Shown in pieces: positions 17,241 to 35,259 of a stretch of DNA of 62,652 nucleotides; positions within the stretch are counted from its first letter, which is position 1, and each line of letters opens with the position of its first letter. Source of the DNA: a virus. The DNA lies in IMG/VR virus record IMGVR_UViG_3300027754_004386, positions 1 through 62,652 of that record; one strand, given 5' to 3'. Below the pieces are notes generated by a model. It was not told the origin of the DNA. It did not search any database and saw only the letters and a list, made by a program, of their open reading frames with translations. Position numbers and translations under genes: made by a program.

Positions 17241-18455
17241 ATGAGCAAAATTAGAGTATTATGTCTCCCCTCAGACCGTACGGGAGTTTTTAAATTTAGG
17301 TCGGGTGACCCTCACGTAATGTTACAAAATAATCACGGAGACGACTTTCACGTAGATATTGATTATGAACCAAGAATTAACGATCCAAACTATTGGAAAC
17401 AATATGATATTGTTCATTTTCATAGATCTATTGGTCAAGATTATAACCAATCTGAAAACATCATTAAATACCTTAATTCATTAGGTATTGTCACAATTAT
17501 GGATTTAGATGATTATTGGTTACCAACAAAAGAACACCCAGTACATCAATTGGTTGTTCAAAATAAATTACACGAAAAGATTATGGGTAATTTAAAGGTG
17601 GCTCAACACGTAACAACCACAACATCGGTATTTGCAACTGAAATTGCAAAACTAAACAAAAACGTTTATGTGTTACCAAACGCCATTAATCCAAAAGAAC
17701 CTCAATTTAATGCAGTTACAGAACCGTCAGAAAAACTTAGATTTGGCTGGCTTGGCGGTTCATCACATTTGCACGATTTAAAACTTCTTGATGGGTCAAT
17801 GAACAAATTGTCAGCATATAAAGATAAGTTTCATATGTTTTTATGTGGTTTTGACACAAGAGGAACCGTAACAGAAATAAATCCTCAAACAAACGAACAA
17901 AAACAAAGAGATATTAGACCCGAAGAAACCGTTTGGGCAAGATATGAGGAGATATTCACGGACAATTATAAAATGGTGGATCAAAAACATAAAGAATTTT
18001 TAATGACATTTAAAAATGAAGATTATGTTTCAGATGTAATACCTTTTTATAATAGAGTATGGACTAAACCTGTTACCAGTTATGCATCAAATTATAGATT
18101 ATTTGACGTATCTCTTGCACCAATTAAAAACCATATCTTTAATAGAGTAAAATCACAATTAAAAGTTATTGAGGCTGGATTTTACAAAAAGGCAATTATT
18201 GCATCAAATGTCGGTCCATACACAATTGACTTAAAACACGCACTTAAAAATGGTGAATTTACTGATGGTAATGCCCTTTTAGTTGATGAGGTAAGAAACC
18301 ATAGCGATTGGTCAAAATATATGAAAAAACTAATTGACAACCCTAACTTGGCATATGATCTTGGACAAAGACTATATGAAACGGTTAAAGACACGTATGA
18401 TCTAAATAAAGTCACAGCTGACAGAGCAGAACTATATAAAAGTTTAATAAAATGA
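17241..18455 (+). CDS. GT-B fold glycosyltransferase (GT4-like)
   Basis: About 404 residues from the preferred start MSKIRVLCLPSDRTG. An ATG 30 nt further upstream is in frame but sits against the preceding terminator. The two Rossmann-like halves of a GT-B enzyme are visible: the acceptor side (YDIVHFHRSIGQDY, IVTIMDLDDYWLP) and the donor side (RFGWLGGSSH near 180, KSQLKVIEAGFYKKAIIASN near 310, ALLVDEV). The family transfers sugar from a nucleotide-sugar donor. It overlaps the next gene by 4 nt (ATGA), so it is coupled to the exonuclease gene. The substrate is unknown. Confidence 0.8.
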   Translation: MSKIRVLCLPSDRTGVFKFRSGDPHVMLQNNHGDDFHVDIDYEPRINDPNYWKQYDIVHFHRSIGQDYNQSENIIKYLNSLGIVTIMDLDDYWLPTKEHPVHQLVVQNKLHEKIMGNLKVAQHVTTTTSVFATEIAKLNKNVYVLPNAINPKEPQFNAVTEPSEKLRFGWLGGSSHLHDLKLLDGSMNKLSAYKDKFHMFLCGFDTRGTVTEINPQTNEQKQRDIRPEETVWARYEEIFTDNYKMVDQKHKEFLMTFKNEDYVSDVIPFYNRVWTKPVTSYASNYRLFDVSLAPIKNHIFNRVKSQLKVIEAGFYKKAIIASNVGPYTIDLKHALKNGEFTDGNALLVDEVRNHSDWSKYMKKLIDNPNLAYDLGQRLYETVKDTYDLNKVTADRAELYKSLIK

Positions 18456-19168
18456 TAAACATTCCTATTTCTAAAATTTTATTCTTGGACATTGAAACCG
18501 TTGGTGGGTGTCCCGATTATGAATCTTGCACAAGATTTAATCCTGAACTTGCAGAACAATTTGAAAAATATTTTGATTGGTTTCTAAAACGTTTTCCTGA
18601 AGACGAAGGTCTTTGTCCTAGAACCGAACTTAGAGATTACGTCTTTAAAAAAAGATCGGCACTTGTTCCTGAATTTGCAAAAATTGTTTGTGTATCAATG
18701 GCATTTGTTATGGATAATGGTGAAGTTAAAAAACAAACATTCTCTGGGGATGATGAAAATGAATTATTAATACAAGTAAGGAATCTTTTAGACAGGTGTC
18801 ATAAATTAGATTTTTATCTATGTGGACACAATCTTAAAAATTTTGATATACCAATGTTGGCAAAAAGAATGATAATAAACGGAATTTTACCGTCTAAGAT
18901 ACTTCCAGATTACAACACAAAGCCTTGGGAAGTTAAAGCAATTGACACAAAAGAAATTTGGCAATATGGTGCATACACATCAATAGGGTCGTTGGATCTT
19001 GTTTGTTCAACAATGGGAATACCGACACCAAAGGATGGTGAGGTAACAGGAGATAAAGTACATCACGCATATTGGGTAGATCAAAAATTAAAAGAGATCT
19101 CAGAATACTGCGAAAAAGATGTTGATGTACTTATTGAGTTCATAAAAAAATTAAAAGAGTTAAAATAA
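18452..19168 (+). CDS. DnaQ-like 3'-5' exonuclease (PolB exonuclease type)
   Basis: A 238-residue protein. The exonuclease motifs are all present: FLDIETVGG (Exo I, D13 and E15), CGHNLKNFDIP (Exo II, D132) and EYCEKDVDVL (Exo III, D222), with SIGSLDLVCSTMGIPTPKDG between the last two. This is the arrangement of predicted 3'-5' exonucleases related to family B polymerase proofreading domains. It acts on DNA 3' ends, presumably in replication or repair. It overlaps the upstream GT gene by 4 nt and shares one base with dut, so replication-type genes are interleaved with glycan genes. Confidence 0.85.
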   Translation: MINIPISKILFLDIETVGGCPDYESCTRFNPELAEQFEKYFDWFLKRFPEDEGLCPRTELRDYVFKKRSALVPEFAKIVCVSMAFVMDNGEVKKQTFSGDDENELLIQVRNLLDRCHKLDFYLCGHNLKNFDIPMLAKRMIINGILPSKILPDYNTKPWEVKAIDTKEIWQYGAYTSIGSLDLVCSTMGIPTPKDGEVTGDKVHHAYWVDQKLKEISEYCEKDVDVLIEFIKKLKELK

Positions 19169-19776
19169 TGTTTGAAAATTTAAAAAACTTAAGAGAGGGG
19201 ATGAAGACAGTTAAAGATCTTCGTTCAAAATTAGAAAATGTTGATATGAACGACCCACAAAAAATGATGGAAGCGTTTGGTATAAACATTGACGAAATTG
19301 AAGATGCATATTTAAATATGAAACCTGAAAAACAAAAAATAGTTTTAGGTTTTTCTAGATCTAAAGACAATGCTGTCACACCAAGTTATGCTTACCCAAC
19401 GGACTCAGGGTTTGATTTATATTCCACAGAAGAAAAATATATTGAACCATTTGGTAGAGAGTTGATTCCAACAGGTCTTCATTTTGATATTCCTGAAAAC
19501 TATGAAATACAAGTAAGATCAAAAAGTGGATTGGCTCTTAAACAAGGTCTTATGGTTTTAAATTCACCAGGAACCGTAGATCAAGGATATACAGGGGAAG
19601 TCCAAGTTATTATGTTTAATACAACAAAAGAAAAAATTAAAATAGAAAAAGGTCAAAAAGTTGCACAAGCAGTTGTTTGTCCTATCTTAACAAGTAATTG
19701 GATTGATATTAGAGAATTGGAATCTGTCGAAAATAAAGATAGAGGTAGTAACGGATTTGGAAGTACGGGGATATGA
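19168..19776 (+). CDS. dut: dUTPase (dUTP diphosphatase) with N-terminal extension
   Basis: A 202-residue protein. All five trimeric dUTPase motifs are intact: TDSGFDLYS (78-86), RSKSGLALKQG (117-127), GTVDQGYTGEV (135-145), GQKVAQAVV (162-170) and RGSNGFGSTG (192-201). It hydrolyses dUTP to dUMP and pyrophosphate, limiting uracil in phage DNA and feeding dTMP synthesis. The first 57 residues are an extra charged helical extension not needed in the usual family of about 150 residues; its role is unknown. The stop overlaps the start of a small ORF. Confidence 0.95.
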   Translation: MFENLKNLREGMKTVKDLRSKLENVDMNDPQKMMEAFGINIDEIEDAYLNMKPEKQKIVLGFSRSKDNAVTPSYAYPTDSGFDLYSTEEKYIEPFGRELIPTGLHFDIPENYEIQVRSKSGLALKQGLMVLNSPGTVDQGYTGEVQVIMFNTTKEKIKIEKGQKVAQAVVCPILTSNWIDIRELESVENKDRGSNGFGSTGI

Positions 19777-19940
19777 AAAGTAGGAAAGAAATAGAACAGG
19801 AAATTAAAAAAACCGAAACTGAAATCACAATGTCAGATATGAATGATGGGTGGTGGAATAAATACATGGAAGAGAAATTAAAAAAATTAAAAAAACTTTT
19901 AGAGGATGATAACAGTAGGGTTTTCGACGAGGAAGATTGA
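19773..19940 (+). CDS. Small hypothetical protein (55 aa)
   Basis: A 55-residue frame starting ATGAAAAGTAGG, overlapping the dut stop by 4 nt (ATATGA) and overlapping the next gene by 35 nt. The protein is highly charged and helical (KSRKEIEQEIKKTETEITM, YMEEKLKKLKKLLEDD), resembling a short coiled coil. The ATG/TGA junction with dut supports real translation, and the small ORF fills what would otherwise be a 130-nt gap. No function can be assigned. Confidence 0.55.
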   Translation: MKSRKEIEQEIKKTETEITMSDMNDGWWNKYMEEKLKKLKKLLEDDNSRVFDEED

Positions 19941-21543
19941 TGACACCTTTGTTGAGATGTTAAAAAAAACATCGGGACTTTCAAAAATTGAAATTATCCC
20001 GTTTGAGAATAATGGGGAATTTTCATTAACTGAGGTTTATAATAAAATACTTGATCAATCATCAAATGATATTGTTGTACTTTGTCATGATGACATTTAT
20101 TTTGATTCAAAAAATTGGGGTTCAAAAATATTAAATTATTTTAAAAGAAACTCAGATTACGGTATTTTAGGTTTGGCAGGTACTACAAACATGCCAAAAT
20201 CAGGAAGATGGTGGGAAGATTTTTCTAAAATGAAAGGTATTGTAAATCACGAACACGAAGGAAAAAAATGGGAATCAAAATATTCTGCAAGTAAAGGAAA
20301 CCAACTTGACAATGTAGTTTTAGTTGATGGTCTTTTTATTGTAGTAAATAAAAAAAATATTAAAAAACCATTTAATGAAGAGATCGGAGGATTTCATTTT
20401 TATGACGTAGATTTTTCTTTTAGAAATTTTATTGAGGGCGTTAAAATTGGAGTTATGTATGACGTTAGAGTTACACATAAATCAATTGGTCAAACAAACG
20501 AACAATGGGAAAAAAATAGAGAAATTTTTGCAGAAAAATATAAAGATATATTACCAGTTAAAGTAAAAAGAAACTTAACGTTAGAATCACCAATTAAAGT
20601 ATTACTTTCTTGTTTATTTTTTAAAACATTTACAGGATCAGAAATGTATGTTTATGAATTAGCAAAAGGTTTAAAAAAGTTAAATTGTGATGTAACGATT
20701 TTATCAGATATAAACGGACCACTTTCATCAATTGCTAAAACGCAAGGTATAAAAGTTTTACCTTTTCACGAAGCGCCTGGTTATAAATTAGGTGATGGAA
20801 AATGGGGGATTAATACACCACAAGGTATTCAAGCATCACAGCCAAATATAATGTATAAAATTTCAGAGATTGATTATGACATTATTCATACCCAACACAC
20901 ACCAGTAACAAATCAAATGTGTCAAATGTATCCTAACATTGATAAAATTTCAACAATACACTCAGAAGTTATTGAACTTGAAAATCCTGTAATTGATGAA
21001 AAAATTAAAAAGTATATTTGCATAAGACCTGAAATACAAGACCATATTGTGTCAAAATTTGAAATTGATAAAACAAAAACCGAAGTAGTTTATAACCCTA
21101 TAGATATTAATCGTTTTAACACTAAAAACGTAAAAGATGATGGATACGTTTTATTTGTCGGGACAATTGATTATTTACGAGAAAACACAATAAAAGATCT
21201 TGTTGAATATACAAAAGAAATTGGAAAGGAATTGTGGTTAGTTGGGGAAAACAAATCAAACTATTTAGAGGATCTTTTAAAGAGTTCTCACGTTAAATAT
21301 TACAATGCAACAAGTAAAGTTGAGACGTTTGTTAAAAATTGTTCTGAAACTGCAGGAATACTTTTGGGTAGGACGACAATTGAAGGGTGGCTTTGTGGTA
21401 AACCCGGATGGATTTACAATGTGGATGAATCGGGTTATATTTTAAATAAAGAAAAACACGAAGTACCTGAAGATATTAATAAATTTAATTCTTTGGAAGT
21501 TGCAAAAAAAATAAAAGAAGAATATATTAAAATATGTCATTAA
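19906..21543 (+). CDS. Two-domain glycosyltransferase (GT-A N-terminal, GT-B C-terminal)
   Basis: A 545-residue protein. Residues 1-220 look like a GT-A domain of the StrF-like GT2 type: ITVGFSTRKIDDTF, IVVLCHDDIYFD (DD metal site), VDGLFIVVNKK and FHFYDVDFSFRN. Residues 230-545 form a GT-B domain: SPIKVLLSCLFFKTFTGSEM, DYDIIHTQHTPV, VVYNPIDINRFN, VLFVGTIDYL and LLGRTTIEGWLCGKPGW. It is therefore a bifunctional enzyme able to add two sugars in sequence, or a two-lobed fusion. The start overlaps the preceding small ORF and the end overlaps the following GT2 gene by 10 nt. Confidence 0.85.
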   Translation: MITVGFSTRKIDDTFVEMLKKTSGLSKIEIIPFENNGEFSLTEVYNKILDQSSNDIVVLCHDDIYFDSKNWGSKILNYFKRNSDYGILGLAGTTNMPKSGRWWEDFSKMKGIVNHEHEGKKWESKYSASKGNQLDNVVLVDGLFIVVNKKNIKKPFNEEIGGFHFYDVDFSFRNFIEGVKIGVMYDVRVTHKSIGQTNEQWEKNREIFAEKYKDILPVKVKRNLTLESPIKVLLSCLFFKTFTGSEMYVYELAKGLKKLNCDVTILSDINGPLSSIAKTQGIKVLPFHEAPGYKLGDGKWGINTPQGIQASQPNIMYKISEIDYDIIHTQHTPVTNQMCQMYPNIDKISTIHSEVIELENPVIDEKIKKYICIRPEIQDHIVSKFEIDKTKTEVVYNPIDINRFNTKNVKDDGYVLFVGTIDYLRENTIKDLVEYTKEIGKELWLVGENKSNYLEDLLKSSHVKYYNATSKVETFVKNCSETAGILLGRTTIEGWLCGKPGWIYNVDESGYILNKEKHEVPEDINKFNSLEVAKKIKEEYIKICH

Positions 21544-22253
21544 TAATATTAACAACTGCATATAATTGTGAAAACTACATTGAGAAATGTTTAACCACAA
21601 TAATGACTCAAAAGCATAACGATTTTAGGTGTTTTATTACGGATGATTTATCTACCGACAATACTTTAAGTAAGATAAAGAATTTAATACAAAACGATAA
21701 TAGGTTCACATTAATAGAAAATACTAAAAAAATGTACCAACCCGGTAATTACGATCAAATTATACGAGGAAATTACAACGTCAAGGATAATGATATATGT
21801 GTGGAAGTAGATGGTGATGATTGGTTGCCGGACTCAAATGTTTTTAGTAGAATCAACTCAACGTATTTAGATAGTAGTGTTTGGTTAGCTAATGGGTCTT
21901 TTAAATATCACGATGGTAGGTCAGGATTCTCATCACCCCATAGTACTTTTGAGGATATTAGAAATAAACCATTCACTCTTAGTCATATTAGGACTTGGAA
22001 ATCGTTTTTATGGAAAAATATAAAAGTTGACGATTTAAAAAATGAAAACGGGGAATACTGGGATGTTGCCGGTGACTTGGCGTTCATGTTCCCGATGGTA
22101 GAAATGTCAGGAATTGATCATTATAAATTTATGCCCGATGTTAATTATGTTTATAACGAAGAAAATCCATTAAATGACCATAAATTACATCTTTGGAGGG
22201 TTCAACGGGTCAATAATATTATCAGAAACTATAAACCGTACAATAGATTATAA
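21534..22253 (+). CDS. GT2-family glycosyltransferase
   Basis: A 239-residue protein with a typical GT-A start: LIILTTAYNCENYIEKCLTT (3-22), TDDLSTDNT (37-45), and the metal-binding DxD in VEVDGDDWLPD near 90-100. It transfers a sugar from a nucleotide donor, presumably in the cytoplasm. It overlaps the previous gene by 10 nt and abuts the next one with no gap. The sugar and acceptor cannot be read from the sequence. Confidence 0.85.
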   Translation: MSLIILTTAYNCENYIEKCLTTIMTQKHNDFRCFITDDLSTDNTLSKIKNLIQNDNRFTLIENTKKMYQPGNYDQIIRGNYNVKDNDICVEVDGDDWLPDSNVFSRINSTYLDSSVWLANGSFKYHDGRSGFSSPHSTFEDIRNKPFTLSHIRTWKSFLWKNIKVDDLKNENGEYWDVAGDLAFMFPMVEMSGIDHYKFMPDVNYVYNEENPLNDHKLHLWRVQRVNNIIRNYKPYNRL

Positions 22254-22871
22254 ATGATAAACGAGTTTTTTGATAAAATATATTGCATCAATTTAGAAGA
22301 AAGAGTTGACAGGTGGATGTCCGCAAAAAAAGAAATGGACGAAATGGGTATTCAAAATGTTAAAAGGTTTTCAGCAATAAAAAATAAAATAGGACATTTA
22401 GGTTGTAGAGATAGCCATATTGAAATAATAAAAGACGCAAAAAATAATGGATATAAAAGAATATTGATTCTTGAAGATGATTTTATTTTTATAAACAAAG
22501 ATAAAGATCAGATCAATGACATACTAAACCAATTAAATAATGTGGATTGGGAACTTTTTTATTTTGGAGCTACTGTTCATTTATATGACGGTAAATTAGT
22601 TAAGGTGGATAAAAATTTAGTCCAAACTAATTTTGCTTATACAACTCATTCATATGCGGTCAATTCCTCCATATATGATTTCATAATAGATAATGCAAAA
22701 AATTATGATATTATTGATATTTTTTATAACGATCATATTGTAAAAAATAATAAAACATATATTAGTAACCCAATGATATGTTTGCAAAGAGAAAGTTATT
22801 CAAACGTAGAAAATAAGTTTTCAAATTACGAATGGATGGTAGATTATTTTAATACTGCATTAAATAGGTAA
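22254..22871 (+). CDS. GT25-family (LPS-type) glycosyltransferase
   Basis: A 205-residue protein. The start FFDKIYCINLEERVDRWMSA, then VKRFSAIKNKIGHLGCRDSH and RILILEDDFIF, match family 25 glycosyltransferases of lipooligosaccharide biosynthesis (the LNLxxRxDR, GxxGCxxSH and LEDD motifs). The LEDD acidic cluster binds the metal. It is adjacent to the GT2 and GT11 genes with 0-1 nt gaps. Confidence 0.85.
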   Translation: MINEFFDKIYCINLEERVDRWMSAKKEMDEMGIQNVKRFSAIKNKIGHLGCRDSHIEIIKDAKNNGYKRILILEDDFIFINKDKDQINDILNQLNNVDWELFYFGATVHLYDGKLVKVDKNLVQTNFAYTTHSYAVNSSIYDFIIDNAKNYDIIDIFYNDHIVKNNKTYISNPMICLQRESYSNVENKFSNYEWMVDYFNTALNR

Positions 22872-22872: not shown

Positions 22873-23670
22873 ATGATATATTGTAATTTAAAGGGAGGGT
22901 TGGGAAATATGTTATTTCAGATTGCAACTGCAATTTCTTTTTCCACTGATAGATCGGACGAATGTTTCTTTCCTAATCTATCAGACCAGATTAATTACCT
23001 TAACCGGGAGTCAACTCACAATCCAAATCTAAATTACGCAAATGAGTATTTGGAATTATTTAAAAATTTAAAAATAAAAAATATAGAGGGTAACCCATTT
23101 TATATAGAATACCCATTTCACTATGTTGAACATCAACTCCCTAATGGTGAAGTAATAATAGATGGGTTTTTTCAAAGTGAAAAATATTTTAAAAATAATA
23201 GAAAAGAAATTTTAGAAGTATTAGATTTTAGATTTATAGATCAAGACATTTTAAAATCAAAATACCCTTTTATTGGTAAAAAAACAACATCAATACACGT
23301 TAGAAGAGGTGATTATTTAAGTCACCCAAATCATCACCCAGTGCAATCAATAGAATATTACTATAAGGGTATTGAATTACTAAAAAATAATACTGAATTG
23401 TTTGTAATTTTTAGTGATGACATTGAATGGTGCAAAGAAAATCTAAAATTAGAAAATGTAGTTTACATTGAGGGGGAAAAAGATTATAATGAGTTATATT
23501 TAATGTCGTTATGTGACAATAATATAATATCAAATTCTTCATTTTCTTGGTGGGGAGCTTGGTTAAATGAGAACAAAAATAAAAAGGTAATTGGTCCAAA
23601 AATATGGTTTGGAAACAAAATAAACCATAATACGTCGGATATATTACCTGAAAGTTGGATTAAAATTTAA
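22873..23670 (+). CDS. GT11-family alpha-1,2-fucosyltransferase-like
   Basis: A 265-residue protein. The N-terminal LKGGLGNMLFQIATA (7-21), the donor motif HVRRGDY (142-148) and the C-terminal ISNSSFSWWGAWL are the hallmark motifs of family 11 fucosyltransferases. These use GDP-L-fucose and add it in alpha-1,2 linkage. GT11 members can also be L-galactosyltransferases, so the exact sugar is inferred. Gmd encoded downstream at 30732 makes the precursor of GDP-fucose, which supports the fucose reading. Confidence 0.9.
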   Translation: MIYCNLKGGLGNMLFQIATAISFSTDRSDECFFPNLSDQINYLNRESTHNPNLNYANEYLELFKNLKIKNIEGNPFYIEYPFHYVEHQLPNGEVIIDGFFQSEKYFKNNRKEILEVLDFRFIDQDILKSKYPFIGKKTTSIHVRRGDYLSHPNHHPVQSIEYYYKGIELLKNNTELFVIFSDDIEWCKENLKLENVVYIEGEKDYNELYLMSLCDNNIISNSSFSWWGAWLNENKNKKVIGPKIWFGNKINHNTSDILPESWIKI

Positions 23671-23673: not shown

Positions 23674-24084
23674 ATGGAAAAAATATATTCAAAAGTAGAA
23701 GAAGGAAAATTATTACACATAATTAATAGATTAGATGAAATTACCGGAAGGTCAGAAGTCGTACCTGAAAATAATTTTATTCAATGTGCAACATTAAAAA
23801 TGGAAAATGGTAAAACATTTCCTCCTCACAAACACATCACTAAAGATAGACATTACGCCGAACAAATAGCCCAAGAATCTTGGGTCGTTATTAAAGGTAG
23901 TGTCAAATGTATTTTATTTGATATTGATGATCAAATAATTTCTACCCCTATATTATATCCTGGAGATGCCAGTTTTACACTTTATGGGGGACACACATAT
24001 GAGATTTTAGAGGAGGACACCATTGTTTATGAGTATAAAACAGGCCCTTACGAAGGTCAAAAATTAGATAAAACATTTTTATAA
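23674..24084 (+). CDS. Cupin-fold protein
   Basis: A 136-residue protein. The cupin metal-binding motifs are visible as PPHKHITKDRHYAEQIAQE (about 50-68) and LYPGDASFTLYGGHTYEI (about 91-108), with a C-terminal EYKTGPYEGQKLDKTF. Similar small cupins sit in O-antigen and capsule clusters. It is too short for a canonical sugar epimerase, so an isomerase, a sugar-binding or a regulatory role are all possible. Its tight spacing (3 nt and 1 nt to neighbours) places it in the glycan operon. Confidence 0.75.
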   Translation: MEKIYSKVEEGKLLHIINRLDEITGRSEVVPENNFIQCATLKMENGKTFPPHKHITKDRHYAEQIAQESWVVIKGSVKCILFDIDDQIISTPILYPGDASFTLYGGHTYEILEEDTIVYEYKTGPYEGQKLDKTFL

Positions 24085-27768: not shown

Positions 27769-28463
27769 TATACATTATTGGTGATAGTCACGTTTCGGTT
27801 TTTTCAGGCACTGATAAAACACATGATGGTCTTAGACACATACAACCTGAGTTTGGTACTTGTTACACTTTAAGTCAAGGGCAATTAAGAACACACATTA
27901 ATAGATTTGAGCAAAAAATACCGTTTTTTTGTCCAATAAAAATTGGGTCTAACACTGCGTATAATTCTTTTAATAAAATACCAAGAATTGAACAAGTTAT
28001 ATTAGAATATAAAATTACTAACGATGATTACATATTTTTATGTTTTGGTGAAATTGACATAAGAAACCATATTGGATTCAATTCAGAAAAAAATGGTAAT
28101 AGTATATCCGAAAGTATTAAAATATGTGTCGATAGATATGTAAAAACTATTATTTACTTTAAAAATAAAGGATTAAATGTTGGGGTTTATGCTTCTCCAT
28201 GCTCATCAATTGGTAATCAGACACCCATAGATTATGGGGATGTTTTTTTAAGAAATAAAATGACATTAGAATTTAACGAATATTTAAAATCTGAATGTAA
28301 AAAAATAAATGTACCAGTTAAAGACATAACCAAATTGATGATTCTACCTGACGGTAGTACCGATCAAAAATTTATAATGGATGATATACATCTTTCACAA
28401 GAGGCGATGCCACTTTTAATTAATGAATTTTCAGATATAATAAATGAACAGACAAAAAATTAA
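27765..28463 (+). CDS. SGNH/GDSL hydrolase-like protein
   Basis: A 232-residue protein. Block I is IIGDSHVS (Ser8 nucleophile), block III resembles FLCFGEIDIRNHIG, and block V is MDDIHLSQEAM near 203-213 (Asp and His of the catalytic dyad). Such SGNH proteins in glycan clusters act as O-acetyl esterases or, in longer forms, acyltransferases. No signal peptide is visible, so it acts in the cytoplasm or stays with the phage. Opposing acetyltransferase and esterase genes three genes apart suggest tuning of sugar acetylation (inference). Confidence 0.8.
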   Translation: MIYIIGDSHVSVFSGTDKTHDGLRHIQPEFGTCYTLSQGQLRTHINRFEQKIPFFCPIKIGSNTAYNSFNKIPRIEQVILEYKITNDDYIFLCFGEIDIRNHIGFNSEKNGNSISESIKICVDRYVKTIIYFKNKGLNVGVYASPCSSIGNQTPIDYGDVFLRNKMTLEFNEYLKSECKKINVPVKDITKLMILPDGSTDQKFIMDDIHLSQEAMPLLINEFSDIINEQTKN

Positions 28464-29250
28464 TTTAGTTGGTGGTGGTTTTAGTCATAGCCCATCGACT
28501 TCAGGATACGAACCATTATATATTGAATGGGTAAAAAATATCCAAACATCCCCAATTTCTATTTACGTTGATTATGGGATAAAGACAAATATAAACCCTA
28601 ATACTAAAAATTATGCTTGGTTATGTGAATCAAAAACAATAATACCTGATTTATATGAATGGGCAAAAAATAATATAGATTATTTAAAAAATAATTTTAT
28701 TTCAGTTTTTACTCACGATGTTGGATTAACAACCTTATCAGACATTTTTAAATTAACTCAATGTAGTGGTAAGTCTTTTATTAAAGATGGTAATCTTTAC
28801 AACAAAACTAAATTAGTGTCAATGATTGCGTCAAATAAAGTCATGTGTGAAGAGCACTCATATAGACAAAGTATTATTAAAAAATTTTCAAGTAAGTGTG
28901 ATCACTACGGTAGGGGGTATAATGAAATAATTAACAAAGAAGATGGGTTAAAAGATTATTGTTTTTCGTTTGTTATTGAAAATGCCACTTATTCTAATAT
29001 GTTTACAGAAAAAATTACCGATTGTTTTATGACGGGAACTATACCAGTATACTATGGAATGAAGAATATTGGTGATTTTTTTAATGATGACGGTATAATA
29101 ATTTTAGATGATGATTTTAATATTAACGATTTAAATTTTGAATTATACCTATCAAAAATTGATTCGGTAAAGGATAACCTTAAAAGGTCATTAGATTTAT
29201 TAGTTGCTGAAGATTATATATATTTAAAATTTTTAAAAAATGAAATTTAA
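28444..29250 (+). CDS. GT10-family alpha-1,3-fucosyltransferase-like
   Basis: A 268-residue protein. The GT10 signature is clear at about 178-215: KDYCFSFVIENATYSNMFTE, then KITDCFMTGTIPVYYG, with the conserved FxxxxEN, (E/T)K and GxxPVY(Y/W)G elements. Family 10 enzymes transfer fucose from GDP-L-fucose in alpha-1,3/1,4 linkage (Lewis-type structures); some bacterial members use related deoxy-sugars. The gene overlaps both neighbours (20 and 11 nt). Confidence 0.9.
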   Translation: MNRQKINLVGGGFSHSPSTSGYEPLYIEWVKNIQTSPISIYVDYGIKTNINPNTKNYAWLCESKTIIPDLYEWAKNNIDYLKNNFISVFTHDVGLTTLSDIFKLTQCSGKSFIKDGNLYNKTKLVSMIASNKVMCEEHSYRQSIIKKFSSKCDHYGRGYNEIINKEDGLKDYCFSFVIENATYSNMFTEKITDCFMTGTIPVYYGMKNIGDFFNDDGIIILDDDFNINDLNFELYLSKIDSVKDNLKRSLDLLVAEDYIYLKFLKNEI

Positions 29251-29953
29251 AACAATACAAAGTTTAGGGAGCCGATGTCAAAATTCTGAAATATTAAAAC
29301 ATTATGGATATAGGGAGTTTTCTGGGTTTTTTGATTTTATGAATACATCTAAAGTTGATGTAATAAAACATATACTATCTGACAATTTTAATGAAATTCT
29401 TAAAGAAAGTAATAATTTTAGTTTAATTTGTAATCAACTGACAATTGACCCTGAAACGGGTAATGAGTTACCAACATCTATAAGAACAAATAACAAATTT
29501 TATAATCCCGATTATAACAATATTCACACATCATTATTTCCACATCATGACTTAAACAATGAAAAGGATAAAAACCACTTCATTAAATGTAAAGAAAGAT
29601 TTTTAAAATTAAAAAACTTCAACACATTATTTAATTATACTTACAACATTTGGGAAAATAACATAACAACTAAAGATATGGAATTTTTTGTTGATGTTTT
29701 ATCTAAAAATTATAATTTTAAAAACTTTAAAATATGTTTTATTGGTGTTAATATATCAAACAATAGTGGTTTTAAATTGGTTGACTCTACCGACTTTTAT
29801 GATGTTTGGTCATTAACCATTAATAATAGTTTTACCGGTGGATTATTTAATAATAATGATGACAATGAAAATTATATAAAAATAATTAAATCTTATGACC
29901 TTGACCAAAATAGATTAAGCAAAGATGAAATTGATAATTTAAATAATGATTGA
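29240..29953 (+). CDS. DUF1796 putative papain-like cysteine peptidase
   Basis: A 237-residue protein. The start TIQSLGSRCQNSEILKHYGY with FSGFFDFMNT matches the N-terminal signature of DUF1796 (a putative papain-like family), in which the first Cys (here C14) is the proposed nucleophile. HTSLFPHHDL near 90-100 would carry the His. The family often sits inside capsule or glycan loci and its true activity is not established. It is the last gene before a 40-nt gap without a clear terminator. Confidence 0.7.
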   Translation: MKFKTIQSLGSRCQNSEILKHYGYREFSGFFDFMNTSKVDVIKHILSDNFNEILKESNNFSLICNQLTIDPETGNELPTSIRTNNKFYNPDYNNIHTSLFPHHDLNNEKDKNHFIKCKERFLKLKNFNTLFNYTYNIWENNITTKDMEFFVDVLSKNYNFKNFKICFIGVNISNNSGFKLVDSTDFYDVWSLTINNSFTGGLFNNNDDNENYIKIIKSYDLDQNRLSKDEIDNLNND

Positions 29954-29993: not shown

Positions 29994-30713
29994 ATGTCAT
30001 TTGAAATAATTAAAGAATTTGAAAAGTCAGTTGCTGATTTTTTTGGATCCAAATATGCGGTAGCAGTGGATTCTTGTACTCACGGAGTTGAGTTGTGTTT
30101 AAGATATACTAAATCTGATAAAATCAAAGTCCCTAAACATACTTATTTATCTATTCCGTTTTTATCTGAAAAGTTAAAAATTAAAATGGACTGGTCAGAT
30201 GAGGAATGGGTTGACTATTATTATCTAACAGATAAAGTTATTGATGCTGCGGTTTTATGGGAGAAAGGATCATATGTAGAAAACACTATGATGTGCGTAT
30301 CTTTTCAATATCAAAAACATTTAAGTTTAGGTCGTGGAGGTATCATACTATTAGACAATGAAGAAGATGCGAAAACACTTAAAAAAATGTCATACGATGG
30401 TAGAATTCCAGATATTCCTTGGCGAGATCAAAACATAGATACGATTGGTTATCATTATTATATGACACCGGAAACTGCAATGTTAGGTTTAGAAAAATTA
30501 GAAAATGCAATAAACACTAAACCAAGAAAATGGACTATAAATGATTGGCCCGATCTAACCCAAATGGTTATCTTTAAAAAAGAAGAAAATAACGTTTATA
30601 TTTACGAATCCACAAATGATCCTAACATTATAAGAAGAAGGAAGTTCGGTGAATATGATTTTTATGAATATTGTGAAATAAATAAAATAGATCCCTACTT
30701 ACAAACAAAATAA
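29994..30713 (+). CDS. Shortened DegT/DnrJ/EryC1-type sugar aminotransferase
   Basis: A 239-residue protein against about 360-380 for the family. Present are the N-terminal helix and phosphate-binding region (FEKSVADFFGSKYAVAVDSC, THGVELCLR), VIDAAVLWEKG (Asp contacting the cofactor) and SFQYQKHLSLGRGG with the PLP-binding Lys at 108. Absent is most of the C-terminal small domain and the long middle segment. GDP-4-keto-6-deoxymannose made by the adjacent Gmd is the substrate of GDP-perosamine-type DegT enzymes, so a linked step is possible. The truncation may instead mean a binding or degenerate protein. Confidence 0.75.
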   Translation: MSFEIIKEFEKSVADFFGSKYAVAVDSCTHGVELCLRYTKSDKIKVPKHTYLSIPFLSEKLKIKMDWSDEEWVDYYYLTDKVIDAAVLWEKGSYVENTMMCVSFQYQKHLSLGRGGIILLDNEEDAKTLKKMSYDGRIPDIPWRDQNIDTIGYHYYMTPETAMLGLEKLENAINTKPRKWTINDWPDLTQMVIFKKEENNVYIYESTNDPNIIRRRKFGEYDFYEYCEINKIDPYLQTK

Positions 30714-30731: not shown

Positions 30732-31733
30732 ATGAGTGAAATTAAAAAAGCGTTTATTACGGGTATTAACGGACAAGACGGCTCTTATTTGGCCGAATAC
30801 CTATTAGAGTTAGGTTATGAAGTTCACGGTATTATCAGAAGAAATTCAACAGTAGAATCACAACAAAGTAGATTTAATGATGAAATAAGAAATAAATTGA
30901 ACATTCATTACGGAGATCTATTAGATCAAGGAGGTATTGAAAAATTACTAGATCAGATACAACCTGATGAAATTTATAATTTGGCGGCACAAAGTCACGT
31001 TAGAGTTAGTTTTGATATTCCTCAATTTACAGTACAAACAAATTCTTTAGGAGTTTTAAATATTTTAGAAGCTTATAGAAGATCATGCCCAACTGCCAAA
31101 TTTTACCAAGCAAGTTCATCTGAAATGTTTGGAAATTCAGTAGATGAGGATGGGTTCCAAAGAGAGACAACCCCGATGAATCCTGTTAGTCCTTATGGAT
31201 GTTCTAAAGTTTTTGGTTATAACATTGTAAGAAATTATAGAAACGCATACGGATTACATACAACTAATGGTATTTTATTTAATCACGAATCACCAAGAAG
31301 AGGATCTAATTTTGTAACTAACAAAGTTGTAAAAACTGCGGTTGAAATAAAATTAGGTTTAGCGGATAAGTTAGAATTAGGTAATATGGATTCTTACAGG
31401 GATTGGGGTCATTCTAAAGATTACGTAAGAGCAATGCATATGATAATCAATAATGAAACTCCAGACGATTTTGTAGTGTCAACAATGACCACACATTCCG
31501 TAAGGGAAATGGTTGAATATGTTTTTAATAGATTAGATTTAGATTATACAAAATACGTAACCCAAAATGAAAAATTTTTAAGGGCGGAAGAATTAAAATA
31601 TTTAAAGGGAGACTCAACAAAAATCAGAACTCAATTGGGGTGGAAACCTGAGTACACTTTTGAAACGTTGATGGATGATATGATCGATGGGTGGATGATT
31701 AAATTAAATTCACATAACACTATTACAGTTTAA
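30732..31733 (+). CDS. gmd: GDP-mannose 4,6-dehydratase
   Basis: A 333-residue protein. It has the NAD(P)-binding GINGQDG (11-17), HGIIRRNST, GDLLD, the strongly conserved YNLAAQSHVRVSF (82-94), SSSEMFG (128-134, catalytic Glu) and PYGCSKV with Tyr155 and Lys159. NHESPRRG and RDWGHSKDYV are further Gmd hallmarks. It converts GDP-D-mannose to GDP-4-keto-6-deoxy-D-mannose, the precursor of GDP-L-fucose, GDP-rhamnose and GDP-perosamine. No GDP-fucose synthase is visible in the window. It lies between the aminotransferase and phoH genes. Confidence 0.95.
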   Translation: MSEIKKAFITGINGQDGSYLAEYLLELGYEVHGIIRRNSTVESQQSRFNDEIRNKLNIHYGDLLDQGGIEKLLDQIQPDEIYNLAAQSHVRVSFDIPQFTVQTNSLGVLNILEAYRRSCPTAKFYQASSSEMFGNSVDEDGFQRETTPMNPVSPYGCSKVFGYNIVRNYRNAYGLHTTNGILFNHESPRRGSNFVTNKVVKTAVEIKLGLADKLELGNMDSYRDWGHSKDYVRAMHMIINNETPDDFVVSTMTTHSVREMVEYVFNRLDLDYTKYVTQNEKFLRAEELKYLKGDSTKIRTQLGWKPEYTFETLMDDMIDGWMIKLNSHNTITV

Positions 31734-31734: not shown

Positions 31735-32475
31735 ATGACAAGTAGAAAAAAACCAGCACAACAAAACGAAGAACCTGAAGGTAAACCGTTTTCAAAAAAA
31801 GATTTTATTAACACAGTTATAAAGAAAAAACAAAAAAACAAATTTTTATCCCCAAATCAAGAAGAGTATTACAATATTCTAAAAGAAAGTCAAATAACGA
31901 TTTGTTCAGGTCCGGCAGGTGTTGGTAAATCATATATCGCAATGAAGGCCGCTGTAGATCTTTTAATGGACCCAAATAACGCTTATGAAAAAATTATTAT
32001 TGTAAGACCGGCAGTTGAAGCTGAAGAGAAGTTGGGTTCGCTTCCGGGAAATTTAGAAGAAAAATTAGATCCTTATATTTTTCCTTCTTATTACTTATTA
32101 AATAAAATTATCGGTAAAGATGCTAGAGAAAAATTAAAAGAGGCTGAGATTATTGAAGTATTTGCATTAGCATATATGAGGGGTATGAATATTGATAATT
32201 CTATTTTAATTTTTGAAGAGGCTCAAAACGCAACCCCAAATCAAATGAAATTACTTCTAACAAGAATTGGGTTCAATAGTAAATTTTTCATATCAGGAGA
32301 TTTAGAACAAACAGACCGTTATAAAGACAAAAAACAATCAGGACTTTATGACTCACTTCAAAGATTTAAAAACATTAACGACATTGGGGTTTATGATTTT
32401 AGAAACGCCAAAAATGTTAGAAACCCTTTAATCAGTAAAATTTTAGAAAAATATGATGAAGAAAATAGGGATTGA
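31735..32475 (+). CDS. phoH: PhoH-like ATPase
   Basis: A 246-residue protein with Walker A GPAGVGKS (59-66), the IIVRPAVEAEEKLGSLPGNL segment, Walker B-like ILIFEEAQNA (157-166) and FISGDLEQTDR. This is the compact PhoH form common in marine and T4-like phages. PhoH is a predicted ATPase of the RNA-helicase-like P-loop class; its phage role is not settled. The first 35 residues are a Lys-rich leader. It overlaps the next gene by 23 nt. Confidence 0.95.
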   Translation: MTSRKKPAQQNEEPEGKPFSKKDFINTVIKKKQKNKFLSPNQEEYYNILKESQITICSGPAGVGKSYIAMKAAVDLLMDPNNAYEKIIIVRPAVEAEEKLGSLPGNLEEKLDPYIFPSYYLLNKIIGKDAREKLKEAEIIEVFALAYMRGMNIDNSILIFEEAQNATPNQMKLLLTRIGFNSKFFISGDLEQTDRYKDKKQSGLYDSLQRFKNINDIGVYDFRNAKNVRNPLISKILEKYDEENRD

Positions 32476-33106: not shown

Positions 33107-33372
33107 CATTTTTAGGAGAAAACTATTTCATAGATTTAGAAGTATTAGAAAGTAAAGTAAACCTAAGCGGGGAATTTATTCCAACGGGTGAGTCCGAGCA
33201 ACAAATCAGTGTTGTTAAATATGATATTTACAAAAATTTAATAGAGGTTATTTTAACTGAAAGAGAAGAGATGGATGAAAATTTAGGAATTCACAATTCT
33301 AATAATTTAACAATACCGTTTAAAATTGCATTCAATACACTTTTAATAAACAACATAATTAAAAAATTTTAA
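33100..33372 (+). CDS. Hypothetical small phage protein
   Basis: A 90-residue protein I do not recognise. It starts MLTFLGENYFIDLEVLESKV, has a short beta-strand pattern (ISVVKYDIYKNLIEVILTER) and ends in a hydrophobic helix. It overlaps the HAD-like gene by 7 nt and is 3 nt before the next glycosyltransferase gene. Confidence 0.55.
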   Translation: MLTFLGENYFIDLEVLESKVNLSGEFIPTGESEQQISVVKYDIYKNLIEVILTEREEMDENLGIHNSNNLTIPFKIAFNTLLINNIIKKF

Positions 33373-33375
33373 AAA

Positions 33376-34440
33376 ATGGATTTAGAAAGACTAGAAAAGA
33401 TGGAACAGTCCATCAAAAATTTGGAGGAGAGAACCTCAAGGATTTACTTTTTGGTTCAAGACACAAAAGGTAATCCAAAGGCAGGTATTAGACACATTTA
33501 TCAAATTGCCCTCACATTAAAAAATAACGGTTTTAATCCGATTATTATTCACGAGTCAAAGGACTATAAAGGAGTCGGTGAATGGTTAGGTAATGAATAT
33601 ATGGAATTACCTCATCAGACAATTGAAGGTGAAAACTTACAGATCTCACCTGAAGATTTAATTGTCATTCCTGAACTTTATGGTCACGTTATGGATCAGT
33701 TAAAAAACTTCCCTTGTGGTAAAATTGTTTTGTGTCAAGCATATGATCATATGTTAGAAACATTGGCACCAGGAACAGATTGGACTACTTATGGTTTTTA
33801 TAAATGTATTACCACTTCTGAATTTCAAAAAAATTACATTACAGAAGTAATGAGAGGAGTGAGTATTGACGTTATACAACCATTGATTCCTAATGAATTC
33901 TCTAAAAAAGACAAACCGTCAAAACCTATTATCTCAATTCACACTAGAGATCCAAGAGACACTTCAAAAATAATTAAAACGTTTTATTTAAAATATCCTC
34001 AGTTTAGATGGGTAACATTTAGAGATCTTAGAGGTATAAACCAAAATGATTTTGCAAAATTCCTTAAAGAATCGTTTGTTTCTGTTTGGGTTGATGTTGA
34101 ATCAGGGTTCGGTACATTTCCTTTAGAGTCAATGGCATCGGGTACACCAGTAATTGGAAAAGTACCAAATTTAAAACCTGACTGGATGACCGAAATGAAT
34201 GGTATTTGGACACACAACACAAACGAAATCGTTGATATTCTTTCAAACTACCTACAAAATTGGTTGGAAGATAATATTTCTGAAAATTTATATGTTAATA
34301 TGTCGGAAACCTCAAAAACATATCAAAATGAAGAAGAATTTAATGGAACAATTTTAAAATTATTTGGTGAATACTTTGATGGTAGAAAAACATCTTTCAG
34401 TGACCAAATTGAAAAACTAAAAATTACAGAAGAAAATTAA
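33376..34440 (+). CDS. GT-B glycosyltransferase-like protein
   Basis: A 354-residue protein. After a charged N-terminal helix comes a Rossmann lobe (RIYFLVQDTKGNPKAGIRHI, FNPIIIHESKDYKG, DLIVIPELYGHV) and a second lobe with PIISIHTRDPRDTSKII, VSVWVDVESGFGTFPLESMA and SGTPVIGKVPNL. The E(S/G)FGxxPLExMAxGxPVI block is the family 4 donor-binding motif. It uses a nucleotide sugar, with substrate unknown. The DUF-like small genes around it separate it from the main island, but direction and spacing (6 nt to the next GT) keep it in the same transcription unit. Confidence 0.8.
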   Translation: MDLERLEKMEQSIKNLEERTSRIYFLVQDTKGNPKAGIRHIYQIALTLKNNGFNPIIIHESKDYKGVGEWLGNEYMELPHQTIEGENLQISPEDLIVIPELYGHVMDQLKNFPCGKIVLCQAYDHMLETLAPGTDWTTYGFYKCITTSEFQKNYITEVMRGVSIDVIQPLIPNEFSKKDKPSKPIISIHTRDPRDTSKIIKTFYLKYPQFRWVTFRDLRGINQNDFAKFLKESFVSVWVDVESGFGTFPLESMASGTPVIGKVPNLKPDWMTEMNGIWTHNTNEIVDILSNYLQNWLEDNISENLYVNMSETSKTYQNEEEFNGTILKLFGEYFDGRKTSFSDQIEKLKITEEN

Positions 34441-34446
34441 TTTATT

Positions 34447-35259
34447 ATGGAAGAAAAAGTATTATTTGATGTATCGGTAGTATTACCAATCGAGTCGGCT
34501 AAATATAAAGATTTTAGTGACCTTTTTAATAGATCGGTGGAATCTATTAAAAATCAATCCGTTGATATAAAAGAACTTATTGTGGTACATTCTAAAGAAG
34601 AAGGTTTAGTGAACTACCTTAATGGGTACGATTTTAAAGGAATTAACACCGTTTTAGTTTTAAATGAAGGAACTACAGATTTTTCATCTCAAGTAAATTT
34701 AGGAGTTGAAAAAGCAACATCTACGTGGGTATCTATTTTAGAATTTGATGACGAGTATTCATCCATTTGGTTTAAAAACGCAAAACGTTATTCTGAATCA
34801 TATACCGATGTTGATTGTTTTTTACCTTTGGTGGTTGACACAGATGAAAAGGGGGCATTTGCTGGGTTTACAAATGAGGCGACGTTCGCCGTTAGTTTGA
34901 CAACAGAAATGGGTTATTTAACAAATGACGTTTTATTAACTTATCAAAACTTCCAAACAAGTGGAATGGTTGTTAAAAGAGACACTTTAATCAATAATGG
35001 AGGATTTAAACCATCATTTAAATTAACATTTGTTTATGAATTACTTTTAAGATTAACATATAATTCTGTAAAAATTATGTCAGTACCTCGTATTGGGTAC
35101 AAACATACGAATATGAGAGAAGGGTCAATTTTTTGGAACTACAAGTTTGGGGAAAGTAAGATCACAGACGATGAGGTTAAATTTTGGTTGGATTCGGCGA
35201 AAAAAGAACATTTCTTCACTAATGATAGAAATATAAAATATGAACCACAAAATGTTTAA
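34447..35259 (+). CDS. GT2-like (GT-A fold) glycosyltransferase
   Basis: A 270-residue protein. It has a GT-A start (FDVSVVLPIESAKYKDFSDL, RSVESIKNQSVDIKELIVVH), a putative metal site WVSILEFDDEYS near 95-106, and GMVVKRDTLINNGGFKPSF near 180-198, which matches the family 2 region where many members read hxRxxhxxxGGF. The DxD here is FDD. The stop overlaps the start of the sigma factor gene by one base, linking glycan genes to late regulation. Confidence 0.75.
   Translation: MEEKVLFDVSVVLPIESAKYKDFSDLFNRSVESIKNQSVDIKELIVVHSKEEGLVNYLNGYDFKGINTVLVLNEGTTDFSSQVNLGVEKATSTWVSILEFDDEYSSIWFKNAKRYSESYTDVDCFLPLVVDTDEKGAFAGFTNEATFAVSLTTEMGYLTNDVLLTYQNFQTSGMVVKRDTLINNGGFKPSFKLTFVYELLLRLTYNSVKIMSVPRIGYKHTNMREGSIFWNYKFGESKITDDEVKFWLDSAKKEHFFTNDRNIKYEPQNV

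Follow-up and report, generated by a model that had tools for sequence, protein, structure and literature searches.

An exchangeable locus of predicted sugar-making and sugar-attaching genes in uncultured T4-like phages

A tight run of glycan-building genes in a T4-like phage contig

The window, that is, the whole stretch of DNA analysed (62,652 nt; IMG/VR record IMGVR_UViG_3300027754_004386, positions 1 to 62,652), is probably a fragment. Its phage is T4-like, with a gp23-type major head protein (phrog_138, 8.9e-66) and a gp20-type portal (phrog_213, 1.1e-60). In phage records, proteins 35-42% identical to the head protein come from, among others, a Microcystis phage, a Flavobacterium phage and Rhodothermus phage RM378; these do not settle the host. 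The protein at 44167-47037 has a signal-like start and a GEVED domain (3.6e-15), and its end resembles by eye a type IX secretion C-terminal domain; the Bacteroidota host guessed from it was dropped, as no such domain appeared among its NCBIfam matches.

Between positions 17211 and 35259, 23 ORFs were accepted as genes, all on the + strand, near-contiguous and with many overlaps of 1-23 nt (Table 1; genes are named below by their first position). An earlier note on this DNA had listed about eleven glycosyltransferases of named classes, together with Gmd and accessory enzymes. Pfam, PHROG, profile and model evidence confirmed both the inventory (11 glycosyltransferase-type proteins in a single run) and the classes; the start given for the first GT4-like gene, 17241, is an internal ATG of the ORF beginning at 17211. 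Related contigs carry many of these genes in the same order, so the island is neither a chance arrangement nor an assembly artefact. A comparison with related phages, as the note had suggested, showed constant flanks and variable content in the slot between them. That the island is integral to the phage genome was supported by the PHROG matches of dut and phoH, but the late sigma factor cited for the same purpose is only weakly recognizable, and no PHROG match was obtained for 35259..36005.

Table 1. Genes of the island and its flanks, with the evidence for each assignment
Feature	Position	Strand	Evidence
Constant-flank GT4-like glycosyltransferase	17211..18455	+	PHROG 7162 'glycosyltransferase' 1.3e-44; Pfam only 0.011
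Flank 3'-5' exonuclease (DNA_pol_B_exo2)	18452..19168	+	Pfam 4.4e-14; PHROG 25228 1.8e-36
Flank dUTPase (dut)	19168..19776	+	PHROG 135 8e-52
Left slot border, GT2_5 + GT4 fusion	19906..21543	+	Pfam PF13712 3.6e-30, PF13439 6.4e-12
GT2	21534..22253	+	Pfam PF00535 3.4e-14
GT25	22254..22871	+	Pfam PF01755 1e-7
GT11, lineage tied to amino-sugar cassette	22873..23670	+	Pfam PF01531 4.2e-27; tree
WbuC-like cupin	23674..24084	+	TIGR04366 7.8e-10, 38.7 bits, just below cut-off 42
NodZ/O-FucT-fold glycosyltransferase 1	24086..24949	+	Pfam NodZ 1.1e-5, under cut-off; AF2 pLDDT 88.5
NodZ/O-FucT-like 2, tandem paralogue	24953..25843	+	63% identical to NodZ/O-FucT-like 1 (24086)
Methyltransferase	25846..26424	+	Pfam Methyltransf_24 5.6e-12
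Hexapeptide acyltransferase (NeuD/PglB/VioB-like)	26421..26951	+	TIGR03570 1.1e-9, far under cut-off; PF00132 4.3e-5, under cut-off
NodZ/O-FucT-like 3	26941..27768	+	hhalign to 24086 alignment 99.9%, 7e-32; profile to NodZ 0.0025
SGNH hydrolase-like	27765..28463	+	Pfam 0.0019, under cut-off; GDSH near start, DDIH near end
GT10	28444..29250	+	Pfam PF00852 2.5e-9, 37.5 bits vs cut-off 23.9
DUF1796 (putative papain-like peptidase fold)	29240..29953	+	Pfam 2.4e-9
Half-size DegT/PLP sugar aminotransferase	29994..30713	+	Pfam PF01041 9.8e-17, 61.6 bits vs 19.8; AF2 pLDDT 89
GDP-mannose 4,6-dehydratase (Gmd)	30732..31733	+	Pfam PF16363 8.5e-117, 390.7 vs 27 bits; solved Gmd 5.9e-92
Right slot border, PhoH-like	31735..32475	+	PHROG 170 5.4e-69
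Constant-flank GT4-like	33376..34440	+	Profile of 20 sequences vs solved glycosyltransferase 6.1e-16; under Pfam cut-off
Constant-flank GT2	34447..35259	+	Pfam 2e-6, over cut-off
Flank sigma-factor-like protein (weak)	35259..36005	+	TIGR02937 6.4e-4, 19.4 bits vs cut-off 42.9

Enzymes of the flanks and of the slot

The 17211 protein is 63-85% identical to 19 aligned relatives; its profile matched none of the solved structures. For the fusion protein 19906, tblastn found no match among 50,697 phage records. Genes 33376 and 34447 were both present in 79/79 phoH-anchored loci examined (80 in total, one being too short and omitted from this count); the solved structure 8xsg is listed as a glucosyltransferase (PMC12159676). 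The proteins that fell under the Pfam cut-off were the three NodZ-like ones, the GT4-like 17211 and 33376, and the SGNH and hexapeptide proteins.

Several fucosyltransferase-fold families do occur in the slot, as had been claimed. GT10 and GT11 exceeded the curated Pfam cut-offs (95.6 bits for GT11 against 23.9 for PF01531), and the GT11 protein contains HVRRGDY, an instance of HxRRGDY, which we take to be the GT11 (alpha-1,2-fucosyltransferase) motif. A single-sequence search of solved structures with GT11 returned three chance matches only, all of them designed repeat proteins. Assignment by HMM was less successful for the NodZ-like proteins 24086, 24953 and 26941, which scored 24.9, 25.5 and 14.4 bits, respectively, against the 28.3-bit cut-off of PF05830 (NodZ / GT23); the first was rescued by its AF2 model. 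This protein, the one on which the O-FucT clan fold was tested by structure, adopts a NodZ/FUT8/POFUT/FUT1 fold (NodZ 3siw: Z 17.3, rmsd 3.1, 216 aligned; FUT8 6vld: Z 17.7, rmsd 3.4, 237 aligned), and the best 43 of the 50 matches listed were fucosyltransferases.

Among the accessory enzymes, cupin 23674 is strongly conserved across 33 sequences and has no meaningful match in Pfam; Gmd scored 389.1 bits against the NCBIfam equivalog TIGR01472, just short of its cut-off of 415. The GDSH start and DDIH end of 27765 are presumably SGNH hydrolase motifs. The short DegT protein keeps the PLP residues D84 and K108, invariant in 22 sequences, and its catalytic residues are conserved over 34 divergent DegT proteins. 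At 239 aa it is missing the C-terminal domain that its full-length kin possess, most structural alignments stopping near residue 196, and it might catalyse another reaction. The nearest solved fold by Foldseek was GDP-perosamine synthase (3.3e-8); by VIA-align, many DegT sugar aminotransferases tied (Z 15.8-17.6 in the best 50 listed matches), so perosamine is not singled out by the fold.

Gene cassettes are exchanged at a fixed slot

Between the GT2/GT4 fusion gene and phoH, 0 to 17 genes were found across 56 complete slots (a non-redundant set that includes the window), five of which were empty. The window-type cassette is over-represented, since the first 87 loci were retrieved with the window's GT11 and NodZ-like proteins as queries. 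The cupin+Gmd data rejected the phoH clade of 13 (AU p 4e-45). Of the cassette clades, one was rejected by the phoH data (p 4e-6) and another, of 6, was not (p 0.36). The conflict between flank and cassette trees indicates that cassettes move between phages. The GT11 lineage follows cassette type (5 changes vs 15.3 when shuffled), as does that of GT10 (2 vs 7.2), although this link may reflect mere physical linkage. A Wilcoxon test of cassette against flank identity was set aside as evidence because many loci had been retrieved with cassette genes. Judged by gene content and phylogeny, the group of uncultured T4-like phages has a fixed genomic slot at which entire sets of genes predicted to make and attach sugars replace one another.

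The donor cassette of the window

Gmd had been read as a source of GDP-fucose precursor. The enzyme is present, but the pathway is incomplete, with no GDP-fucose synthase match in the window. Among contigs carrying the window-type cassette, 10/15 (window included) lacked such a match, even those of 362, 233 and 144 kb, and the remaining five gave weak partial matches (G006, G008, G017 and G019 among the weak ones), yet the synthase was present in 5/5 searched contigs of the alternative cassette; all contigs searched were classed 'linear' and were often fragments. The same division was seen in 28 Gmd-bearing slots: 17 had the short DegT, all 17 with a cupin and none with a fucose synthase, while eight of the 11 without it had a fucose synthase, four of these eight also having ColD. 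In the one slot where a cupin occurs without a separate DegT ORF, DegT follows DUF1796 in a fusion, and the short DegT and fucose synthase occurred together in only 1/80 phoH-anchored loci. The alternative-cassette enzymes were identified as GDP-fucose synthase (5e-58) and ColD (4.5e-57); Gmd, ColD and a fucose-synthase-type reductase, a predicted GDP-colitose set, stand together in 4/28 Gmd-bearing slots, all of relatives and not of the window. Weak fucose-synthase-like SDRs (23-27% identity) lie near 5/16 bacterial loci. Two extra SDR proteins of locus L034 were rejected as fucose synthases, their best matches being UDP-glucose 4-epimerases (1.5e-56 and 1.6e-41); fucose synthases were lower among the matches of the second (best 2.2e-13).

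From the neighbours of Gmd (half-size DegT, WbuC-like cupin and hexapeptide acyltransferase) we infer a GDP-linked, N-acylated 4-amino-4,6-dideoxy sugar, and the window cassette therefore seems built for this rare amino sugar rather than for plain fucose. The invariant PLP residues, the GDP-perosamine synthase fold as nearest match and the formyltransferase encoded between cupin and DegT in two bacterial copies favour such a sugar; the methyltransferase-like gene at that place in most bacterial copies speaks against it.

Proposed model and alternatives

With a probability of about one half, the full explanation is an exchangeable glycan locus of T4-like phages (gp23-type capsid) whose local content, the island, is an amino-sugar cassette. 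The constant glycosyltransferases 17211, 19906, 33376 and 34447 would assemble the core of a glycan on an acceptor in the cytoplasm, and the slot between 19906 and phoH would hold a replaceable decoration set. Gmd would convert GDP-mannose to GDP-4-keto-6-deoxymannose, the half-size DegT would aminate C4 to yield a GDP-perosamine-like sugar, and the hexapeptide enzyme would acylate its amine; the product may be modified again by the methyltransferase and the cupin. The amino sugar and/or host-made GDP-fucose would be the substrate that GT11, GT10 and the NodZ-fold enzymes transfer. More tentatively, and with considerable doubt, the locus may amount to a phage serotype-like system, in which donor cassettes and donor-matched GT10/GT11 are exchanged between distant phages at a fixed locus and virions are re-coated with rare sugars (e.g. 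an N-acylated GDP-perosamine-type sugar made via the half-size aminotransferase), one GT10/GT11 lineage having switched to a non-fucose donor.

A cytoplasmic acceptor is favoured because Bac_transf and Polysacc_synt_3 (the lipid-carrier initiating transferase and flippase families) were absent from 16 related contigs; a virion protein would be the first choice and the host surface the second. The Thr-rich fibre linkers earlier suggested as acceptors were rejected as a group-wide target, since a 7-Thr-codon pattern occurred in 8/25 contigs against 11/25 for the backward control. The pattern has nine sites in the window, and is also found in four contigs with empty slots; for the window phage itself such a linker is a possible acceptor. 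The earlier interpretation as a whole is partly supported.

The enzyme classes of the island are typical of O-antigen loci, which agrees with a glycan that is added to the surface of infected host cells, changing serotype and excluding competing phages. Hypervariable glycosyltransferase regions of pelagimyophages have been read in this way (extracts of PMC7029224). Against it stand the missing Bac_transf and Polysacc_synt_3 families, although the host could supply both functions, and a simple hydropathy scan in which no slot protein showed a clear membrane helix (the highest mean over 19 residues was 1.74, in 26941); a host-surface target is possible, but we think it the less probable one. An island for GDP-fucose proper, in which a host GDP-fucose synthase complements Gmd while GT10, GT11 and the NodZ-like enzymes build fucosylated Lewis-/H-like glycans, and the DegT, cupin and hexapeptide proteins are there for a minor sugar, would fit the family scores of GT10 and GT11, the fold of 24086 with its fucosyltransferase matches, and the existence of cyanophages with full GDP-fucose sets (extracts of PMC9602691). 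It is unlikely given the distribution of the synthase over the two cassette types and its near mutual exclusion with the short DegT.

That the glycosyltransferases decorate phage DNA as an anti-restriction hypermodification is improbable: GT10, GT11, GT25 and NodZ-fold enzymes are of glycan type and, to our knowledge, not of DNA type. A thymidylate-synthase-family gene was found in 4/16 contigs, but not in the other 12, including the window (many contigs being fragments); glycosylation of phage DNA is itself known (cited in the extracts of PMC12619734). About as improbable is stuffer or transit DNA, mobile cargo with no role for the phage, as raised for cyanophage LPS genes by the authors of PMC3037559 (in extracts). 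The empty slots would suit it, but the conserved DegT catalytic residues, the intact frames in the window, the conserved partner sets and the donor-matched transferase lineages all argue against it.

If the exchangeable amino-sugar locus is real, phages diversify their glycan by cassette exchange, like bacterial O-antigens and Megavirinae fibril sugars, and the sugar coats of bacterial viruses may change in much the same way as those of bacteria. If active, the half-size aminotransferase would be smaller than any functional member of its class known to us, and GT10/GT11 enzymes that accept a donor other than fucose would extend what these families do in glycan synthesis. Because phages that are otherwise alike naturally differ in having an empty, a colitose-type or an amino-sugar-type slot, the role of phage LPS-type genes can be tested directly.

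Comparison with known systems

Host-style fucosylation had been called new for a phage, which is wrong as stated; both fucosyltransferases and glycan islands have been described in phages before. Cyanophage S-SCSM1 is likewise reported to combine Gmd, O-fucosyltransferase, alpha-1,2-fucosyltransferase and NodZ, but it has a GDP-fucose synthase where the window has the short DegT, cupin and hexapeptide set (extracts of PMC9602691). LPS-type clusters of T4-like cyanophages were described in 2010 (extracts of PMC3037559); these phages and pelagimyophages also have a variable region that encodes glycosyltransferases and enzymes of sugar-nucleotide synthesis, near phoH in P-SSM2 too (extracts of PMC3037559 and PMC7029224). 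In pelagimyophages this region is located between VrlC and gp14 and includes tail fibres (extracts of PMC7029224), whereas the slot described here is bordered by two constant genes (the GT2/GT4 fusion and phoH), can be empty, and accommodates alternative donor cassettes to which the GT10/GT11 lineages correspond. Both the compact aminotransferase module and the donor-matched exchange of cassettes appear to be new, as no description of donor-cassette exchange in phages or of the short DegT was found in the portions of the open-licence literature consulted.

The short DegT resembles GDP-perosamine synthase (3bn1, 3dr4, 3dr7) and ColD (2gms) in fold and PLP motif region, and would use the same Gmd-derived precursor, but these two have about 370-390 residues and a C-terminal domain. 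The half-size form is shared with Prochlorococcus, Marinimicrobia and other bacteria, and bacterial cupin-X-short DegT-Gmd modules (L171-L185; short DegT of 195-201 aa) have the same gene order. In most bacterial copies X is methyltransferase-like and not N-acylating, and in two it is a formyltransferase, whereas in phages X is a hexapeptide, GNAT or methyltransferase-like protein, and additional genes often intervene. Megavirinae giant viruses also have clade-specific clusters for rare bacterial amino sugars on the particle, such as 4-N-acetyl-viosamine with its acetylating enzyme (PMC10117803); those are viruses of amoebae that use UDP sugars on a target proven by chemistry, while here the virus is a phage and the GDP sugars are predicted.

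Phage identity and composition of the island

The window spans an entire IMG/VR viral contig (62,652 bases), which is classed as linear and is therefore probably a genome fragment. Its head protein and portal belong to the T4-like families phrog_138 (8.9e-66) and phrog_213 (1.1e-60), respectively. The best matches of the head protein among phage records (35–46% identity across little over half of the protein) were from an unannotated uncultured phage, Microcystis phage Mel-JY01, Flavobacterium phage immuto and Rhodothermus phage RM378. When 50,697 phage records, from which very near records may have been omitted, were searched, no match was found either to the island (megablast) or to the GT2/GT4 fusion and the GT4 protein encoded at 33376 (tblastn).

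Of the proteins listed in the earlier note, those assigned to GT10, GT11, GT25, GT2, the GT2/GT4 fusion, Gmd, DegT, DUF1796 and the methyltransferase scored above the Pfam curated cut-offs. The three proteins it called NodZ-like, of the O-FucT clan, missed the Pfam cut-off, but their assignment to this clan stands as a prediction, through fold in the first case and homology in the other two. An AlphaFold2 model of the first (gene start 24086), built from 16 sequences, reached a pLDDT of 88.5 and matched NodZ (3six, 1.9e-8); among its best 50 VIA-align rows, the top 43 were all NodZ, FUT8, POFUT or plant FUT1 (Z 12.2 to 17.7), with row 44 falling to Z 9.0. The second protein shares 63% identity with the first, and the third matched the profile of the first with 99.9% probability.

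Coordinates of the island and of other features in the window and in related loci (L-numbers)
Source	Coordinates	Strand	Length	Feature
Window	530-2290	-		Leucine-rich-repeat phage protein (LRR_4 5.5e-40, 9 stretches); contains a poly-Thr linker; weak CBM_5_12 match near the end, under cut-off
Window	2436-4574	-		Fibre-like protein with Laminin_G_3/lectin-type domain (1.9e-13); 6-8-Thr runs at several places, resembling mucin linkers
Window	17211-35259	+		Island; one gene run with short overlaps
Window	44167-47037	-	956 aa	Thr-rich protein, GEVED domain (3.6e-15), start resembling a signal peptide by eye; looks like a secreted bacterial protein
Window	47176-48885	-	569 aa	Homing/HNH endonuclease family (phrog_3339, 2.5e-91); adjoins the head protein gene
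Window	55088-57856	-	922 aa	Portal gene; portal domain at residues 412-805, preceded by HNH-endonuclease matches inside 37-349 that resemble an endonuclease or intein-like insertion
L009	~16000-16950			Short DegT fused in frame behind DUF1796
L011	3290-4234			Ketoacyl-synthase-III-like protein (family by eye) beside an SDR protein; also in L019 and L021
L088	14173-24989			Glycan cluster of Flavobacterium phage immuto, with a short DegT (31% identity) adjoining a gene annotated as pilin glycosylation

A slot of variable content between constant neighbours

The slot is the gene stretch between the GT2/GT4 fusion (19906) and phoH, and a cassette is a replaceable gene set inside it. phoH was chosen as the anchor for collecting relatives because it is independent of the cassette; the phoH-anchored set comprised the best 80 of at least 259 confirmed relatives, each at least 70% identical. 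Three genes outside the slot (GT4 at 33376, GT2 at 34447 and the sigma-like gene) were present in 79/79 of these best 80 loci, the 1.4-kb locus L164 being excluded. When the phoH-anchored loci, those collected earlier and the window were pooled, 68 slots had both borders, 56 of them non-redundant (at least two near-copy pairs still being included). Counted as ORFs of 75 aa or more from the fusion to phoH, these 56 slots contained 0 to 17 genes; five were empty, with their borders −26 to 89 bp apart (n = 5). The phoH-anchored loci alone (best 80 of at least 259) provided 32 complete slots of 0–13 genes, five of them empty.

Slot contents differed widely among phages with similar phoH: a colitose-type set was found in L096 (phoH identity 88%), RmlC- and RmlD-like proteins in L095 (92%), and nothing in L093 (89%). 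Of the 215 ORFs in slots that bore neither a window-gene nor a named-alternative label, 100 were picked at random and scanned with Pfam; 72 families were found in total, the commonest being GT2 (8), epimerase (6), FkbM (5), TylF (4) and RmlD (3). Glycan genes thus abound in the slots, though a large share of the slot content is unassigned.

Donor cassettes that almost exclude each other

The earlier note had proposed that at least five enzymes of the island would use GDP-fucose or a related deoxy-sugar, with Gmd making the precursor. Synthesis of GDP-fucose requires Gmd plus GDP-fucose synthase. The synthase of a relative (L043; solved kin 5e-58) was used as the query against 20 contigs. It matched strongly (E 7.5e-45 or better) in all five contigs with the alternative cassette, which encodes fucose synthase. 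Among the 15 contigs bearing the predicted amino-sugar cassette of the window (Gmd, short DegT and cupin), the query found no match in 10, including the window and contigs of 362, 233 and 144 kb; the remaining five gave partial matches that were weak (6.4e-4 to 2.8e-11). The two weak matches in one contig (G007), traced on locus L034, had UDP-glucose 4-epimerases as their nearest solved kin.

The genes accompanying Gmd were counted with script thresholds on related, non-independent loci. Among 28 Gmd-bearing slots (window included), short DegT was present in 17, accompanied by the cupin in 17/17 and by fucose synthase in 0/17. The other 11 comprised eight with fucose synthase, four of which also had ColD (solved kin 4.5e-57, and His at the Lys position, which we take to be the mark of ColD), one with a cupin but no separate DegT ORF (L009), and two with none of these. 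Since related loci are not independent, Fisher values on these 28 slots are descriptive only. In the phoH-anchored loci (best 80 of at least 259, near copies included), Gmd was found in 26: 15 had the synthase without short DegT, five short DegT and cupin without the synthase, one short DegT alone, one cupin alone and three none; a single exception combined short DegT with the synthase. Gene content thus suggests that short DegT and fucose synthase cassettes almost exclude each other.

The short DegT and its neighbours

The short DegT accompanying Gmd in the window has 239 residues, and 21 of 34 different family members have just 195–210. D84 and K108, presumably the PLP Asp and Lys, were invariant in 22 aligned sequences. 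The model (pLDDT 89) was nearest to GDP-perosamine synthase by Foldseek (3.3e-8), but in VIA-align many sugar aminotransferases tied (Z 15.8–17.6, 181–208 residues aligned, rmsd 2.5–3.5); the predicted class, sugar aminotransferase, is therefore firm, while GDP-perosamine synthase as the substrate-level identity is not. The in-frame fusion in L009 hints that DUF1796 works with the aminotransferase.

One genome scan found the short DegT in 16 bacterial loci, from Marinimicrobia, Prochlorococcus, Alphaproteobacteria, Bacteroidota and one planctomycete. The order cupin-X-short DegT was seen in 13/16, with Gmd immediately 3′ of DegT in 12/16. Two Prochlorococcus loci had a formyltransferase as X (PF00551, 1.7e-13 and 1.5e-14); in one of them, L177, the best NCBIfam match of X was ArnA formyltransferase, a 4-amino-sugar formyltransferase also matching, all under cut-off. 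X was a methyltransferase in L171, the other ten looking similar by eye. In phage loci the cupin-DegT interval, which often holds additional genes, contained a hexapeptide enzyme, a methyltransferase-like protein (e.g. L115, L122) or a GNAT (L039). If the product were an amine, alternative N-acylating enzymes would be expected at one site, and their variety there would fit; the numerous methyltransferases at X would fit less directly. The ketoacyl-synthase-III-like and SDR pair may furnish the predicted amino sugar with an unusual acyl group. Flavobacterium phage immuto, which is in culture and whose head protein is related, is a possible laboratory model.

Exchange of cassettes between phages

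Trees of phoH and of cupin plus Gmd were compared for 21 phages with the amino-sugar cassette. A phoH clade of 13 was rejected by the cupin and Gmd data (log-likelihood difference 181.5, AU p 4e-45), and the phoH data rejected a cassette clade consisting of L021, L017, L027, L014 and L002 (p 4e-6); with the same data, a six-member cassette clade was not rejected (p 0.36). Between the window and a 362-kb phage (L001, retrieved through a slot gene), four flank proteins had a mean identity of 38%, whereas for 12 of 14 slot proteins the mean was 69%.

Of the 83 sequences in the GT11 tree, 36 came from amino-sugar loci, 17 from fucose-synthase loci and one from a locus with both, and 29 were unlabelled. 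This tree required five label changes, compared with 15.3 when labels were shuffled; its starred clade of 32 comprised 31 amino-sugar sequences and one unlabelled. In the GT10 tree (37 sequences: 23 amino-sugar, eight fucose-synthase and six unlabelled) two changes were required, compared with 7.2. In neither case did any of 500 shuffles give so low a value; both trees are quick ones with long-branch warnings, from a sample biased to the window's cassette.

Possible acceptors of the glycan

A simple hydropathy scan revealed no clear membrane helix in the slot proteins, and neither PF02397 (lipid-carrier initiating) nor PF13440 (flippase) was matched in 16 contigs, while they were found in 9/14 and 14/14 control genomes, respectively. 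Together these results argue mildly for a soluble candidate acceptor, such as a virion protein, and mildly against export by machinery of the phage's own making. A thymidylate-synthase-family gene, used as a proxy for base hydroxymethylation, was present in 4/16 contigs, a count that says little about DNA as the glycan target.

Comparison with known systems

In the open-licence literature, no precedent was found for a fixed slot whose donor cassettes can be exchanged, for GT10/GT11 lineages matched to the donor, or for the half-size DegT module. The available text of the report on Far-T4 phages does not contain 'glycosyl' (PMC4360716), and Megavirinae provide a further comparison system (PMC10117803). 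Phage fucosyltransferases and glycan islands are themselves already known: cyanophage S-SCSM1 is a precedent for fucosyltransferases and glycan genes (PMC9602691), LPS clusters have been described in cyanophages (PMC3037559), pelagimyophages carry glycosyltransferases in hypervariable regions (PMC7029224), and in moraphages glycosyltransferases belong to the core genes (PMC12619734).
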